Origin: Candidatus Kryptonium thompsonii
GTDB taxonomy: Bacteria; Bacteroidota; Ignavibacteria; Kryptoniales; Kryptoniaceae
Length of the DNA stretch: 64,000 nt
Direction: 5' to 3'
NCBI GenBank assembly: GCA_001442925.1
Contig: LDXX01000003.1
Coordinates: 186,001 to 250,000 of the forward strand
Positions 26,170-32,890 of the stretch are shown here, piece after piece; position 1 is the stretch's first letter; each line of letters opens with the position of its first letter. Under the pieces are notes generated by a model, which saw only the letters and a program-made list of their open reading frames with translations, was not told the origin of the DNA and ran no database searches. Position numbers and translations under genes: made by a program.

Positions 26170-26948
26170 TTTATGCCTTCTTCTTCGAGAATTTTTTGAA
26201 GCATTTGGGCATTTTTAGGAGCGCTTCCACGATGGCAATTATTGAAGAAAATATAAAGCGTCTCAACTTTTTCGTTAAGTTCTTTAATTCTCGGGATCCA
26301 TTCACGAAGTTCACTTTCACTGTAGAGATAATCATATCTTTCGCCGACACCGCCTTCCCACCAGTTTTCTGCATTACGGCCATGGAATCTTATATACCCA
26401 ATTTTTTTGCTTGTTGCTATACTTTGTGGCGGGATTAAACCTTTCAACTTCGGTTCATCAACGCAAACATAAGGTATATCGTTTTCCGATAAAAACTCAT
26501 ATGCAGAGTTATTTACCCAGCTTATATGCCTGAACTCAACTATTAACGGTATTCCATCAGCGAACCTTTTTGTTTCGAGAATATATTTTCTGTTTTCTGG
26601 TGTATCTTTGAATGAGTAAGGGAATTGGGCAAGAAATCCTTTTAATTTTTCTGTTTTGAGCAATGGTTCCGTTGCTTTGAGAAGAGATTCCATTGCTTCG
26701 CGATTTCCTTCCCTTTCATGAGTTGTTTGCTTGTGGACTTTAACGATAAAATGGAAGTCAGGTGGGGTTTTCCTATCAAGATGATAAAAAACATTTGGAC
26801 TTGGGATTCTATAATATGTTGAGTTAATCTCAACGGCTTTGAAAAATTTTTTGTAATGGTCAAGCATTTTGCCATCTTCAATATTTTCAGGATAAAAGTT
26901 CCCGCGCCAATCTTGAAAACTATATCCTGAAGTCCCAATCAAAATCAT
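26166..26948 (-). CDS. DUF72 (YecE-like) protein
   Basis: 260 residues with the DUF72 signature at the start (LIGTSGYSFQDWRGNFYPE), then NSTYYRIPSPNVFYHL, VEFRHISWV, YIRFHGRN and a C-terminal FNNCHRGSAPKNAQML. The family has a TIM-barrel fold; biochemical role is unsettled. First gene of the four-gene minus-strand run that ends with the thioredoxin. Confidence 0.9.
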   Translation of the reverse strand: MILIGTSGYSFQDWRGNFYPENIEDGKMLDHYKKFFKAVEINSTYYRIPSPNVFYHLDRKTPPDFHFIVKVHKQTTHEREGNREAMESLLKATEPLLKTEKLKGFLAQFPYSFKDTPENRKYILETKRFADGIPLIVEFRHISWVNNSAYEFLSENDIPYVCVDEPKLKGLIPPQSIATSKKIGYIRFHGRNAENWWEGGVGERYDYLYSESELREWIPRIKELNEKVETLYIFFNNCHRGSAPKNAQMLQKILEEEGIK

Positions 26949-26962
26949 CGTAGGAGAATTTT

Positions 26963-28309
26963 TTATTTTACATAGGTACCCTCTTCAACAAGTCTAACAC
27001 CAGCATCAATTGCTTTCAAATTTACCTCGGCTATAGCTTTTTTCTGTGTTAACATTACAGCTTTTTTAAGAGCCTCTATCGGGAATAAATTCGTTCGTGC
27101 AAGAAAAGTTGCAAGCGAGAGAATAGTTATTGAAAATCTGTCGATTGTGTTAGCTGTTTTCCTAAATGGGAAAATTTCAATTTTTGCTCTCGTTTCAGGC
27201 AAAAGTGAAACAAGGTTATCATCGATCATGATCGTTGATGTTTCGTTCATGTTTTGAATTATCCTCTTGACCTTTGCAAGCCCTTCAGGGGCGATGATTA
27301 TCAAATAATCTGGACTTTCTATGCCCGTGTAGTTTATCTCTTTTTTGTCAAGTATTATTTCTGAAACTGAGTGTCCAGTCATAATTGTGATGGGGTAATC
27401 ATCTTTTTGGGTGGCGTATAAGCCTGACAAAATCGCGGATGAACCGAAAACGGTTGCGCTCGATTTAACCTTCTGCCCAGCAGCGCCAGCGATGATTATT
27501 CCTGTTTTTTGTGTGAGATTGTTTTCAAATTCGGTCTCGAGCGAAACTTGTTTTGTTTGTTTTGATGGTTGATTTAAATATACCTCGCGATACGATTCTA
27601 TAAATTCCTTTCTCTCAACTTTGTGAACTATGCCTGTTTTGAAGCCATAAGTCTCAAGAAGTTTCATCATTTTATCTTTGTTGAGTTCATTTCGGGGGAC
27701 ATAATAAGCGGTGCAATATTCCCAGACATCAACAACGGAGAAACCTTTAAACGCTATCGCTTCTGCGATTATGTCTGCAAGGTTTCTATCGAAAATTGTC
27801 GTTCTCGCAGCGAATCCACCATTTACAGCTTGAACGAGAGAGCAAGCATCAAGCGGATATTCAATATTTCCAAGATAAGTTGTCGCAGTTTTTCCACCAA
27901 ATGGTGTTGTGACCGAATGTTCTCCGCCCGTCATTCCAAAATTGAAGTTGTTAAAAATTATAACTGTGATGTCGATGTTTCTTCTTGCAGCATTTATAAA
28001 ATGGGTTCCGCCAATTCCAAGTCCACCATCTCCCATTAAGACGATAACTGTAAGTTCTGGATTTGCCATTTTTAAACCGCACGCATAAGTAATTGAGCGA
28101 CCGTGTAATCCATGAAAAGCGTTAACATTAAAATATTGATCTGACAACCCGACGCAACCGATATCAGTTACAAGAACAGTTTTTCTTGGGTCAAGGTTTA
28201 ATTTTGCCATTGCTTTATCGAGTTGAGGTAAAATTTGTGAATGCCCACACCCCGGGCAGAAGGGAAGTTCTACTTCTTTCATATATACAGCATTTTTTAC
28301 TATTGCCAT
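26963..28309 (-). CDS. 2-oxoacid:ferredoxin oxidoreductase, fused beta-gamma subunit
   Basis: Residues 1 to about 260 are the thiamine-diphosphate-binding beta subunit: FCPGCGHSQIL, TDIGCVGLSDQYF, MGDGGLGIGGTHFINAARRN (the GDGG-N motif) and NNFNFGMTGGEHS. Residues from about 275 to 448 are a gamma-type domain (GIIIAGAAGQKVKSSATVFG, DYLIIIAPEGLAKVKRI), normally a separate protein or the N-terminal part of the alpha subunit. So this is a beta-gamma fusion. With the alpha gene at 28752-29897 it would convert 2-oxoacids (2-oxoglutarate, pyruvate or another) to acyl-CoA while reducing ferredoxin. A coiled-coil gene lies between the two. Confidence 0.87.
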   Translation of the reverse strand: MAIVKNAVYMKEVELPFCPGCGHSQILPQLDKAMAKLNLDPRKTVLVTDIGCVGLSDQYFNVNAFHGLHGRSITYACGLKMANPELTVIVLMGDGGLGIGGTHFINAARRNIDITVIIFNNFNFGMTGGEHSVTTPFGGKTATTYLGNIEYPLDACSLVQAVNGGFAARTTIFDRNLADIIAEAIAFKGFSVVDVWEYCTAYYVPRNELNKDKMMKLLETYGFKTGIVHKVERKEFIESYREVYLNQPSKQTKQVSLETEFENNLTQKTGIIIAGAAGQKVKSSATVFGSSAILSGLYATQKDDYPITIMTGHSVSEIILDKKEINYTGIESPDYLIIIAPEGLAKVKRIIQNMNETSTIMIDDNLVSLLPETRAKIEIFPFRKTANTIDRFSITILSLATFLARTNLFPIEALKKAVMLTQKKAIAEVNLKAIDAGVRLVEEGTYVK

Positions 28310-28330
28310 TTTGCGAACAAGTTTTATTTT

Positions 28331-28747
28331 TTATTTTATCGCAAAGCTTAAAATTGCCCACATAGCGGTTATAATTAAAGTTGTAAAGGCAATGAATAAT
28401 CCAATCATCCACTTTATTAAACTTACTCTTAGGTTGTCCATCTTTTCATAAAGTTCAGTTCTCACAGATTCAATCTTTCCATAAAGCTCAGTTTTTGCAG
28501 ATTCAATTGCTCTATAAAGTTCAGTTTTCGTGGACTCAATCTTTTCATGAAGTTCAGTTTTCGTTGATCCTATATTTTTGTGAATTTCAGCTTTATCGGA
28601 CTCGTTTTTTTCATATAAGTTGCTCAACCTCTTGTCAATATATTCAAGCTTTCTATCAATTTCGTCAAATTTTTTGCCGATGATTTCATAGACGAACAAT
28701 TCAAGTTTTGTGATTCGTTGTTCTAAATTTTCTAAGGAAGTCGCCAT
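28331..28747 (-). CDS. Coiled-coil protein with 11-residue repeats and C-terminal membrane anchor
   Basis: 138 residues, in the middle of the oxidoreductase operon (4 bases after the alpha gene, 21 before the beta-gamma gene). Residues 58-112 are five tandem 11-residue units: NIGSTKTELHE, KIESTKTELYR, AIESAKTELYG, KIESVRTELYE, KMDNLRVSLIK. An 11-residue (hendecad) period gives a nearly straight or right-handed coiled coil. Residues 113-135 are a single membrane segment (WMIGLFIAFTTLIITAMWAI). No enzyme motif. It may tether the oxidoreductase to the membrane; this is inferred from order and topology only. Confidence 0.8.
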   Translation of the reverse strand: MATSLENLEQRITKLELFVYEIIGKKFDEIDRKLEYIDKRLSNLYEKNESDKAEIHKNIGSTKTELHEKIESTKTELYRAIESAKTELYGKIESVRTELYEKMDNLRVSLIKWMIGLFIAFTTLIITAMWAILSFAIK

Positions 28748-28751
28748 ATAT

Positions 28752-29897
28752 TTAACCCTCGTTATTTTTTAAGATCTCATCCAAAATTTTTCTTGGATTG
28801 ATAAGTCTCGTATCCATTTGGTTTATCCGCACGATTTTGACCTTGGATTTATCAACGATTCTTTCAATCTCAAGCACATATTGACCGTTGTTCATCTCTG
28901 GGAAAATTATTGTTTTAATCCCTTCAATTGCTTTTTTGATTTCACTTTCTGGAACTGGCCAAAGAAGGTTTATGATCAGATGTGAAACTTTCAAGCCCTG
29001 TGACCGTGCCAGTTCAACTGCTTCAATCGCACCTCTTGCGGTTATACCATAAGAGATGACAAGAGTTTCAGCATCATCCTGTTTGTCAAACCTTACAATA
29101 TGTGGGAAATATTTTTTTATTTTTTCTTCGCTAATTTTCTTATCAAGGTGTTCCATCATTATTTGAATTTTTTCAGGCATGGTTAATAAGTTTCCGTATT
29201 CATCATGCGTTGATGTTGTGTATCTTACGATATGTTTTCCGCCAAAGGGTGAAAAAAGTGGCACATCATCAATATTTTCAAAGTAATATGGTTTGTATTC
29301 ACTCGCGTTTTCAGGTAGATACTTTCTATCAATTATCTCTGGTTTTTCAACTTTTGACCAGTCGATTCGTTGTCTTGTCATGGAGAGCTCTTTGCTTGAG
29401 ACGAGAAAAACGGGGGTTCGGAAAATTTCTGCGAGATTGAAGGCATAAATTGTGAATGTATAACATTCTTCGACAGTCGTTGGAGATATCGCAATGATTG
29501 GGTAGCCTCCCGATGTGCTCCATCTTATAAATTGTATATCTCCTTGTCCATCTTTTGTAGCTGAACCAGTTGCTGGACCCTGGCGTTGCACATCTACTAT
29601 GACAAGTGGCGTCTCGCCCATGATGGCAAGTCCAATATTTTCACTGTAAAGTGAAATTCCAGGTCCGCTTGTTGCCGTCATAACTTTTTTTCCAGCCATT
29701 GACGCACCTATACAAAATCCAATTGAAGCAATCTCATCTTCGGCTTGAATCGCAAATCCACCAACTTTTGGGAGCTCCTGCATCATTCCGAGTAAAATTG
29801 GTGTTGCGGGTGTAATTGGGTATCCAGCAAAAAATTTACATCCTGCGTCAATTGCCCCCTTTACGATGGCTTCATTTCCATCAAGAAACTCTATCAT
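28752..29897 (-). CDS. 2-oxoacid:ferredoxin oxidoreductase alpha subunit
   Basis: 381 residues with the alpha-subunit signature FFAGYPITPATPILLGMMQE near the start, DEIASIGFCIGASMAGKK, TATSGPGISLYSENIGLA and GPATGSATKDGQGD. It lacks an N-terminal gamma domain, which is found instead on the beta protein. The C-terminal part (VISYGITARGAIEAVELARS, INLLWPVPESEI) is domain II. First gene of the three-gene minus operon. Confidence 0.88.
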   Translation of the reverse strand: MIEFLDGNEAIVKGAIDAGCKFFAGYPITPATPILLGMMQELPKVGGFAIQAEDEIASIGFCIGASMAGKKVMTATSGPGISLYSENIGLAIMGETPLVIVDVQRQGPATGSATKDGQGDIQFIRWSTSGGYPIIAISPTTVEECYTFTIYAFNLAEIFRTPVFLVSSKELSMTRQRIDWSKVEKPEIIDRKYLPENASEYKPYYFENIDDVPLFSPFGGKHIVRYTTSTHDEYGNLLTMPEKIQIMMEHLDKKISEEKIKKYFPHIVRFDKQDDAETLVISYGITARGAIEAVELARSQGLKVSHLIINLLWPVPESEIKKAIEGIKTIIFPEMNNGQYVLEIERIVDKSKVKIVRINQMDTRLINPRKILDEILKNNEG

Positions 29898-30018
29898 TTT
29901 TGATTTAAAAAATTTTTTTGTTTTTGGTTCACCTAAAAATTATGATTTTAAACTTGAAAATAAAAATGATTAGAGTGAAAGTTGCTTTTGAAAAAATTTT
30001 TGTTATATTTATCTCAAA

Positions 30019-30064
30019 GGAAGGCGATGCTTTTGGGTACCTTTCCGCCAGGGCATTTCCTTCC
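30019..30064 (+). other. Strong hairpin in the leader of the 30112 gene
   Basis: GGAAGGCGATGC at 30019-30030 pairs with GCATTTCCTTCC at 30053-30064 over 12 positions with one mismatch and one G-U pair, enclosing a 22-base loop that contains GGGTACC and CGCC. A plausible promoter (TTGCTT, 16 bases, TATATT) lies just upstream at about 29983-30010, so the hairpin would be at the start of the transcript, 48 bases before the ATG. It matches no RNA family I can recall. It has no T-run. Confidence 0.5.
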
Positions 30065-30111
30065 AAGCTCTTTTCTCAAAGTATATTTAAAATTTAAAAT
30101 GGTTTGTCGTC

Positions 30112-30870
30112 ATGGGCTCAATTTTTTCTTCTGTTGGTTTTAAAGTTGAAACACAAAAAGACCTTGTTGATCTCGTTGAGAGCACAATTGGTGATAAGGA
30201 GTTCAGCGATTCGTTTGGTGTCTTTCAGAAAGTTCAACTTGCTGGTTACACTTTAAATGCTGGGCATGGAATTGTTTTTAATGTAAATCTTGCCCATATG
30301 GGCGAGGGATGGGAAATCGTTGATGTCTCGCCATGTTTTTATGGTTCGAAGGAACATTCGGTTGTCTTGAAGGATTGTGAGCTCTATCAAGATGTTGAGG
30401 ATGAGTGGAAGTTTTATCTTTATGGGATTGAGGAGGAGAATGGAACGCCTGTTGAAATTTACATTTCCAATTTTGTGCAGTGTGCTTCTTATCTTCCGCC
30501 GATGGGTGAAAAATATGAAGTAATCCCAGTGGGGCTTGCATATAACGGTGAGATTCTGCCACCGAGAAGATTGATTCAAACTGATATCCCAGAGGAGGGC
30601 TCAACCATGGCTAACTTTTTCGTTCAAACTGCCCAAATTCAAGCCATGGAAAATATACCTCCCGTTGTTTATGGTTTGCTTGGTGATATACTTGATGTTA
30701 AGAAGATAAAAAATGAGTGGACGGGTGAGGAAATCTACTGGCTTTATATTGATACAAGTCCGTTTAAGCTTGAAGTTCTAATAAACCCAGCGGATCTTGA
30801 AGGGGAGCCTGAAGTTGGCAAGCGCTTGTTCGCAACTGTTTGGTTGCAAGGTCAAGTTACACCAAAATAA
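30112..30870 (+). CDS. Hypothetical protein
   Basis: A 252-residue soluble acidic protein without signal peptide (starts MGSIFSSVGFKVETQKDLVD). Contains aromatic, beta-rich stretches (YCL-like EWKFYLYGIEEENGTPVEIY, IYWLYIDTSPFKLEVLINP). I do not recognise a family. It is a single-gene unit with a structured leader and a strong bidirectional terminator. Confidence 0.7.
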   Translation: MGSIFSSVGFKVETQKDLVDLVESTIGDKEFSDSFGVFQKVQLAGYTLNAGHGIVFNVNLAHMGEGWEIVDVSPCFYGSKEHSVVLKDCELYQDVEDEWKFYLYGIEEENGTPVEIYISNFVQCASYLPPMGEKYEVIPVGLAYNGEILPPRRLIQTDIPEEGSTMANFFVQTAQIQAMENIPPVVYGLLGDILDVKKIKNEWTGEEIYWLYIDTSPFKLEVLINPADLEGEPEVGKRLFATVWLQGQVTPK

Positions 30871-30899
30871 AAAAACGGGGCTTTAAAGCCCCGTTTTTT
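30869..30899. terminator. Bidirectional rho-independent terminator
   Basis: A perfect palindrome (ACGGGGCTTT / AAAGCCCCGT) is flanked by A-run on the left and T-run on the right, so it works on both strands. It ends the 30112 gene and the convergent ECF operon; the last codon of the minus-strand iron-sulfur protein touches the run. Confidence 0.93.
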
Positions 30900-32890
30900 C
30901 AAGCTTCAACTGCCTCAAGCAGTATTTCAGCAATATCTTTAACTTCAACTCTATCAATGGCATCTTCCGCTTTAACCCCATCGGTTAACATTGTCATACA
31001 GAATGGGCAAGCTGATGCGATCACATCGGGATTTAAACTTAACGCTTCTTTTGTTCTTTCAATGTTAATTCTTTCACCAATTTTTTCCTCCATAAACATC
31101 CTCGCACCGCCAGCGCCACAACAGAGACCTCTATCTCTTGACCTTTTCATTTCCTCAAGTTTAACCCCCTTAATTGAAGCAAGAATATCTCTTGGGGCAT
31201 CGTAAATATCGTTGTATCTTCCAAGATAGCATGAATCGTGGTAAGTTATCTTCTTTTCGATCGGTTTCACAAGCTTTAATCTCCCTTCGATCAAAAGTCT
31301 TTCAAGAAATTCAACATGATGATAAACCTCGTAATTCCCGCCGAAGTCAGGGTATTCATTTTTCAATGTGTTGAAGCAATGTGGGCAGATGGTTATGATT
31401 TTTCTGACATTGTATTTTGAAAATGTCTTTATGTTTTCCTGAATTAACATTTGAGCAAGGTATTCGTTACCAGCTCTTCTTGCGGGATCACCTGTGCATC
31501 TTTCTTCATTTCCAAGGATTCCAAAACTAACATTGGCAAGCTTTAAAAGTTTTGCTACAGCAATTGCAACTTTTTTATATCTTGCATCGTATGAGCCAGC
31601 GCAACCAACCCAGAGCAAATATTCAACATTTGGATCTTCAGCAAGCGTTTTTATGTCAAGACCTTGTGCCCAGTCGCCACGGGTTGAATGGCTGAATGCC
31701 CACGGAGTGAAGTTATTTTCAAGATTTCTAAATGTAATTGAAAGTTCAGATGGGAACTTTGACTCCGTCAAAACGAGGTACCTTCTCATATCGACGATTG
31801 TTTGCACATGTTCAATCATCACTGGGCATTCTTGAACGCACGCCATGCAAGTGGTACAAGCCCAAAGTTCGTCTTCGGTTATGTAGTTGTAAACAAGCGT
31901 TTTCCCGTTTATCTCATCGCTTTGAGGTTTCAAGTTTAATAAAATTGGTGCCTTTTCCATCGTTCTCTTTCTTATGCTGATGATTATTTCTCTGGGTGAG
32001 AGTGGTTTACCTGTCAGATTTGCGGGGCAAGCTGATGTGCATCTCCCACATTCAGTGCAGGTATAACCATCGAAGAGCTGTTTCCATGTAAGGTCTTCAA
32101 CATCAAGTGCTCCGAACCTTTCGACATTTTCAATGTTTTCAAAATTTATCGGATTTAATCTTCCCTTCGGTTTGAGTGAACTAAAATAAACATTTGGGAT
32201 TGAAGTGATGATATGTAAATGTTTTGAGAACGGGAGATAGTTCAAAAATCCGAAGACGAGCAGGATATGTAACCACCAGAAAATTTCGTGAAGGTAGTTT
32301 TGTGTATCGAAGCCAAATCTATCTGTGAATTTTGCGATTTCTTTTGAAGCAAACCGCAACTCATAATGTTCTAAGTCGCCAAGGTTAATTTTGGTCGCAT
32401 AGGTTCCAAACATTGTTAGCATGATTAGAAAAATAAGGATAAGTATGACAGTTGCGTCAATTTTTGAAGATTTTTCAACTTGAAGTCGTTTGGGCTTTTG
32501 AATGTATCTCCTGTAAAGAGCTATCAAAACAGATATCACCACGAGCGTTCCCATCAAATCCTGAAAGAAAGAGATGTATCTATAAGGTCGACCAATTATT
32601 GAGAGATTGAAGTTGAAAAGTCCTTCAAGAATTGCGTCAGTTATAGCGGTTAAAAGTATCACAAAGCCCCAAAAGATGAAAAAGTGCATCCATCCTGCAA
32701 CAAATTCCCTGAGCAATTTTTTCTGACCGAATGCGATTGAAAGAACCCTTTTTAGTCTTTCAATTGGTTTGTCGAACCTATTTTCTGGTTTTCCGATTTT
32801 AAGGTATAGGTATAACCTTCTTGCGTTGTAGATGAATGCAGATATTGAAAGTGCGAATATGATGAGGAAGGTCAGGTTTTTAATAGGCAT
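30899..32890 (-). CDS. Membrane-bound HdrD-like iron-sulfur oxidoreductase
   Basis: 663 residues joining three modules. Residues 1 to about 245 have five or six membrane segments with histidines (GWMHFFIFWGFVIL, WWLHILLVFGFLNYLPFSKH) as in NarI/HdrE-type cytochrome b subunits. Residues about 275-375 hold two [4Fe-4S] motifs (CTECGRCTSACP, CTTCMACVQECP). The rest has two CCG domains (WVGCAGSYDARYK, ICPHCFNTLKNEYP ... CYLGRYN ... GLCCGAGGARMF) as in HdrD, GlpC and lactate oxidase subunits. It probably passes electrons between quinone and a soluble partner. It is the last gene of a five-gene unit led by an ECF sigma factor. Partner and substrate are unknown. Confidence 0.88.
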   Translation of the reverse strand: MPIKNLTFLIIFALSISAFIYNARRLYLYLKIGKPENRFDKPIERLKRVLSIAFGQKKLLREFVAGWMHFFIFWGFVILLTAITDAILEGLFNFNLSIIGRPYRYISFFQDLMGTLVVISVLIALYRRYIQKPKRLQVEKSSKIDATVILILIFLIMLTMFGTYATKINLGDLEHYELRFASKEIAKFTDRFGFDTQNYLHEIFWWLHILLVFGFLNYLPFSKHLHIITSIPNVYFSSLKPKGRLNPINFENIENVERFGALDVEDLTWKQLFDGYTCTECGRCTSACPANLTGKPLSPREIIISIRKRTMEKAPILLNLKPQSDEINGKTLVYNYITEDELWACTTCMACVQECPVMIEHVQTIVDMRRYLVLTESKFPSELSITFRNLENNFTPWAFSHSTRGDWAQGLDIKTLAEDPNVEYLLWVGCAGSYDARYKKVAIAVAKLLKLANVSFGILGNEERCTGDPARRAGNEYLAQMLIQENIKTFSKYNVRKIITICPHCFNTLKNEYPDFGGNYEVYHHVEFLERLLIEGRLKLVKPIEKKITYHDSCYLGRYNDIYDAPRDILASIKGVKLEEMKRSRDRGLCCGAGGARMFMEEKIGERINIERTKEALSLNPDVIASACPFCMTMLTDGVKAEDAIDRVEVKDIAEILLEAVEA

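Follow-up and report, generated by a model that had tools for sequence, protein, structure and literature searches.

A family of tail-anchored hendecad coiled-coil proteins with a member in the kor operon of Candidatus Kryptonium

Stalks, anchors and the protein encoded at this locus

Proteins of the CCDC90/MCUR1 family follow a head-neck-stalk-anchor plan, in which an N-terminal helical head domain stands ahead of the stalk. The Bdr proteins of Borrelia form a multigene family and combine short tandem peptide repeats, variable in number, with a C-terminal membrane helix. Assorted hendecad proteins in several genomes of Bacteroidota, Planctomycetota and Nitrospirota carry a stalk of 11-residue repeats that leads into a membrane helix through a D/N-L-I-K/R-W-M/I/V entry. 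CCDC90-like proteins (DUF1640, PF07798; MCUR1, CCDC90B, yeast Put6 and Put7) are inner-membrane scaffolds in mitochondria (PMC7519068), and the DUF1640 stalk starts with a beta-layer (neck) motif of the form aliphatic-A-T-K-polar-D/E (PMC4786415). A membrane tether of the coiled-coil rod type is not known for the 2-oxoacid:ferredoxin oxidoreductase class (KorAB); among the papers found on hendecads, MCUR1/CCDC90B, DUF1640, Kryptonia, Bdr and membrane-associated KorAB, no title or abstract opening describes such a membrane-anchored coiled-coil subunit for this enzyme.

We describe P0001, a small tail-anchored protein whose gene shares an operon with that enzyme in Candidatus Kryptonium thompsonii. 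It lies in a window of 64,000 nucleotides (contig LDXX01000003.1, positions 186,001 to 250,000), and all coordinates below are positions in this window. The head and the anchor of the protein are conserved, the stalk varies in length, and the family to which it belongs sits in a kor operon in one lineage only. The architecture is known in kind; the kor operon is an unusual place for such a protein. P0001 resembles the CCDC90-like proteins in having a single C-terminal membrane helix after a coiled-coil stalk, and these proteins offer a precedent for such molecules acting on metabolism, an analogy rather than evidence for P0001. The likeness to Bdr is one of layout, repeats and a C-terminal membrane helix, whereas P0001 is a single chromosomal operon gene. 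With the assorted hendecad proteins P0001 aligns in the stalk and the helix entry only; heads and tails differ.

The protein consists of a head, five hendecad units and a membrane helix (Table 1). The sequence-only reading had proposed the units and the helix; reading frame, periodicity and coordinates all bear this out. At lag 11 the soluble part has a self-identity of 31, whereas shuffled sequences average 7.9 and equalled the observed value in 0 of 20000 cases; across lags 3 to 29, none reached this value in 5000 shuffles. On the DNA, the repeats appear as a tandem array with a 33-bp period at 28440-28563 (3.8 copies, 78% matches). In order, the units read AEIHKNIGSTK, TELHEKIESTK, TELYRAIESAK, TELYGKIESVR and TELYEKMDNLR, of which the first and last are degenerate. 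There is a single hydrophobic stretch, whose top 19-mer (residues 115-133) has a mean Kyte-Doolittle value of 2.28. The AlphaFold2 monomer is one helix over residues 2-137 (mean pLDDT 86.8, pTM 0.36); the model backs helicity rather than a fold, and a lone long helix says little on oligomers.

Library searches gave coiled-coil noise: nothing exceeded a curated cut-off in Pfam or NCBIfam, and the PHROGs matches were mostly to entries without function. Sequence matches in the PDB (influenza haemagglutinin HA2, best E 0.00078) were judged to reflect coil composition, not homology, and Foldseek returned 0 matches to the PDB with the helix model.

Table 1. Features of the kor operon and of the protein P0001, with the nearby iron-sulphur protein gene
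Feature	Position	Strand	Basis or remark
korB fused to gamma domain, 448 aa	26963..28309	minus	TPP_enzyme_C 4.3e-31, POR (gamma) 1e-18
P0001, small tail-anchored hendecad coiled-coil protein, 138 aa	28331..28747	minus	ORF, ATG start, lag-11 periodicity, single-helix model, homologues with conserved head and anchor
P0001 membrane helix and C-terminal tail, residues 112-138 (hydrophobic core 115-133)	28334..28414	minus	
P0001 five hendecad units, residues 53-107	28427..28591	minus	33-bp tandem array on DNA
P0001 head segment, residues 1-54	28586..28747	minus	Heptad-like coil ending in RLxxLYEKxExDKxE motif, common to three phyla
korA, 2-oxoacid:acceptor oxidoreductase alpha subunit, 381 aa	28752..29897	minus	POR_N 7.9e-56, PFOR_II 6.3e-16; PRK08659 414 bits (cut-off 411)
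663-aa protein, NarI-like membrane domain, 4Fe-4S and two CCG stretches (HdrD/TfrB-like)	30899-32890	minus	Conserved in L037 and L038

The small gene within the kor operon of the genus

The gene stands between korA, 4 bases upstream (28748-28751), and korB-gamma, 21 bases downstream (28310-28330). Both the position between the subunit genes and the two gap lengths agree with the sequence-only reading, which had left the strand unstated. The stretch 26900-30200 contains no terminator-like site, against an average of 2.5 in shuffles, which is consistent with a single transcript but no proof of it. A purine-rich, Shine-Dalgarno-like stretch, read by eye, precedes the small-gene start in each species. 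The HdrD/TfrB-like protein encoded further upstream, beside the gene of a universal stress protein, may serve as an electron acceptor in the membrane. Divergent from korA lies the gene of a 252-aa protein (30112-30870, plus strand), which is 92-98% identical in two congeners (L037, L038) and matches DUF3881 (E 4e-18) over residues 187-247 only.

Of 61 genomes searched with KorA, 33 had matches, and 30 loci were retained. Twelve match rows have no locus: six belong to a second, gamma-alpha-fused enzyme of the genus (frames of 581-590 aa) and six, from other genera, were left out. The order korA, small gene, korB recurs in six of the seven genomes of the genus, our own included; the KorA matches in these six have 90-100% identity. 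In the seventh genome (G005, 71% complete) neither the small gene (at E 1e-6) nor KorB (at E 1e-40) is matched, and the sole KorA match is of the distant fused type; the absence of the trio there may be missing sequence. No small gene was found elsewhere in the genus than in this operon, where it occurs once or twice in tandem. The fused second enzyme has korB adjacent and no small gene at either locus (L107, L108), including the canonical fused KorA of our own genome (G000:C6:258078-259142, L107). Since the whole neighbourhood is syntenic (nine genes, in L037 and L038), the shared position within the genus is a weak sign of a functional link.

Two loci depart from the single intact gene. At L010:793-1482, two tandem copies with near-identical heads carry 1 and 3 hendecads, which from their sequences is a recent duplication. 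At L012 (G006:C3), an assembly gap (an N-run in the stalk) breaks the gene, and the head before the gap shares its frame with the anchor after it; the korA match there shows one in-frame TGA in the search.

Outside the genus, the arrangement is not kept. All 24 outgroup loci examined have korB immediately after korA, with a gap of -34 to 10 bases when computed up to the furthest start codon; this type of enzyme therefore works without the small protein. The claim of the sequence-only reading that stalk and anchor are encoded in an oxidoreductase operon as a special subunit is partly supported: it holds as to placement, whereas the outgroup loci speak against a special subunit of the enzyme. 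Such a subunit would be kept with korA and korB across the lineages that bear the enzyme, and the small gene accompanies them in 6 of 6 loci within the genus and 0 of 24 outside. That reading had asked whether the trio is kept in other genomes and named absence or relocation of the gene in close relatives as evidence against itself: the latter is what is seen beyond the genus and not within it.

Substitution patterns point to constraint on both ends of the protein. Where dS is unsaturated, dN/dS is 0.03-0.14 overall (head 0.03-0.09, anchor 0.05-0.14); three of the six head comparisons were saturated, and dS often exceeds 1. KorA of the same species gives 0.02-0.04. On these values the small gene is constrained, somewhat less so than KorA. 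The stalk, by contrast, ranges from one hendecad to ten: five in our own genome and in L009, three in L008, one and three in copies a and b of L010, and ten in L011. The residues ahead of the anchor motif number 71 to 164 within the genus, enough for a straight helix of about 11 to 25 nm. Stalk length shifts by whole units: between the LYEK motif and the anchor, 10 of 12 members have a linker of 2 mod 11 residues, and in the remaining two the linker is longer by one heptad; head and anchor therefore keep their helical phase. Whole-unit duplication would yield this phase without selection. Concerted evolution of the repeats was rejected as a general rule, within-protein unit identity being clearly above the between-species value only in L010b and L011. 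With both ends conserved and the stalk free to vary, function presumably resides in the head and the anchor, and their spacing would count for little; a scaffold or a loose tether agrees with this more readily than a fixed electron-transfer geometry does.

Relatives in Planctomycetota and Nitrospirota

Homologues with the same head motif and anchor occur in Kuenenia, Scalindua, other Planctomycetota and Thermodesulfovibrionales. Matches that reach E 1e-8 come from six of the 343 Planctomycetota genomes and seven of the 245 Nitrospirota genomes searched, the weaker ones being other hendecad proteins; the Nitrospirota genomes with both head and tail are G1007 and G439. One scan of genome contigs gave nine loci: two from Kryptonia, six family members (L039-L044, two of them from one MAG) and one non-member (L045), rejected because its head is of another kind. 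An alignment of nine members has 23 invariant columns, 10 in the head motif and 13 at residues 111-138; the head motif and the tail W-A-x3-F-A-x-K are both present in 9 of 9 rows, a count that reflects the choice of the rows as members beforehand. The stalks do not align column by column, and the stretch that can be aligned is short. Weak matches across the phylum reached 13 genomes beside our own, and were rejected as family members: 0 of 14 inspected proteins, drawn from these and from the Planctomycetota and Nitrospirota matches, bear the tail, which makes them other hendecad proteins.

The family keeps varied company. By tblastn at 1e-3, neither korA nor korB lies near family members outside the genus at any of 12 context loci, which represent 10 distinct places (L043 and L106 are the same, as are L044 and L105). 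Pfam finds the neighbours unrelated to each other: YdjC and MMPL; a thioesterase; a TyrRS-like and an FAD enzyme; a threonine-synthase-like PALP enzyme; UDP-glucose dehydrogenase and a nucleotidyltransferase; an HD hydrolase and a transketolase. Eight of the nine family-bearing outside genomes have korA-like genes, and at the 12 loci obtained (from 22 matches, 10 of them without a locus) the small gene was absent throughout. In an anammox relative, a frame-broken copy (L102:5077-5397) stands beside a threonine-synthase-like gene among intact neighbours; unless this is an assembly error, the small gene can be lost there. At L104:5000-5314, the family member is followed directly by a nucleotidyltransferase gene (Pfam), and the small gene after that one resembles, by eye, its HEPN-type partner. 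Searches of viral contigs, plasmids and phages (the latter two with the L104 protein only) gave no relatives.

A scaffold, a tether or a passenger

The reading we favour, with a probability of about 0.55, is that the small gene represents an independent, patchy family of hendecad tail-anchored proteins, generic membrane-bound coiled-coil scaffolds, one of which entered the kor operon in one lineage and is not an intrinsic subunit of the enzyme. P0001 would comprise a short heptad-like coil head, a one-helix stalk of 11-residue repeats and one C-terminal membrane helix, and its copies would pair with each other into a rod. The C-terminal helix would lie in the inner membrane with the rod extending into the cytosol, an orientation we infer from the lack of a signal peptide and from the very short sequence beyond the membrane helix. 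The patchiness of the family suggests horizontal transfer; in the ancestor of the Kryptonia genus, the gene would have landed between korA and korB-gamma, to be read with the operon. The family's role would be that of a scaffold, and the oxidoreductase one candidate client of the rod, not the default one. Against this, the gene is found within the genus only in the kor operon and persists there between two genes of one enzyme, a hint of some connection with that enzyme.

A lineage-specific membrane tether takes up that hint: the coil head would bind KorA/KorB-gamma in Kryptonia and hold the enzyme at the inner membrane near a respiratory acceptor. We consider this possible, and distinctly less probable than the scaffold. 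The operon and order shared by six of seven genomes, the synteny with L037 and L038, the putatively cytosolic rod, the Fe-S protein with its NarI-like membrane part encoded nearby, and the Shine-Dalgarno-like stretches speak for it; however, the enzyme lacks the small gene in every outgroup locus, the homologues lack korA and korB neighbours in 12 of 12 loci, the residues ahead of the anchor more than double in number within the genus, and synteny across the neighbourhood weakens the evidence of position. A fixed enzyme-to-acceptor distance fits badly, because 1 to 10 hendecads stand beside KorA proteins 90-94% identical to our own. A bolder proposal, which we regard as speculative, extends the tether to the family: a transferable, length-adjustable rod would recruit the soluble 2-oxoacid:ferredoxin oxidoreductase to the inner membrane in Kryptonia, and the same family may hold other client enzymes elsewhere, such as the threonine-synthase-like enzyme of anammox relatives, as a portable membrane-recruitment module.

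It is improbable that the gene is a neutral or selfish hitchhiker, tolerated in operons and with no host role. Patchy occurrence, unrelated neighbours, the tandem duplication in L010 and the frame-broken copy in L102 would suit such a passenger; the low dN/dS of head and anchor where dS is unsaturated, the same residues kept over three phyla and the lack of matches in plasmids, phages and viral contigs would not, and the substitution pattern already disfavours this reading. Slighter still is the chance that P0001 is a true member of the CCDC90/MCUR1 (DUF1640) family: beyond the shared stalk-plus-anchor plan and weak Pfam matches (best 0.00025, in L011), P0001 scores 12.4 bits (E 0.14) against a curated cut-off of 33.5, and six other members scanned also fall under it (four at 15.7 to 21.4 bits, two without a match), while the matches span stalk and anchor only, from profile positions 74-119 of 175, and P0001 starts directly with coil, with no N-terminal head domain and no neck motif. 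L011 has E-A-T-K-T-E within its hendecads, by eye, in mid-stalk and without a leading aliphatic residue. Our own genome holds a separate CCDC90-like protein over the Pfam cut-off (L002, G000:C1, 35.6 bits versus 33.5).

Even if the rod of the favoured scaffold binds neither enzyme protein, the family is a clear case of a tail-anchored coil in which the anchor is conserved and the stalk varies freely, distributed over three phyla and without a model in the libraries searched. If the rod does bind its operon partner, a small transferable part, of a length that could change by the gain or loss of 33-base units, would have brought a soluble ferredoxin-linked enzyme to the membrane.
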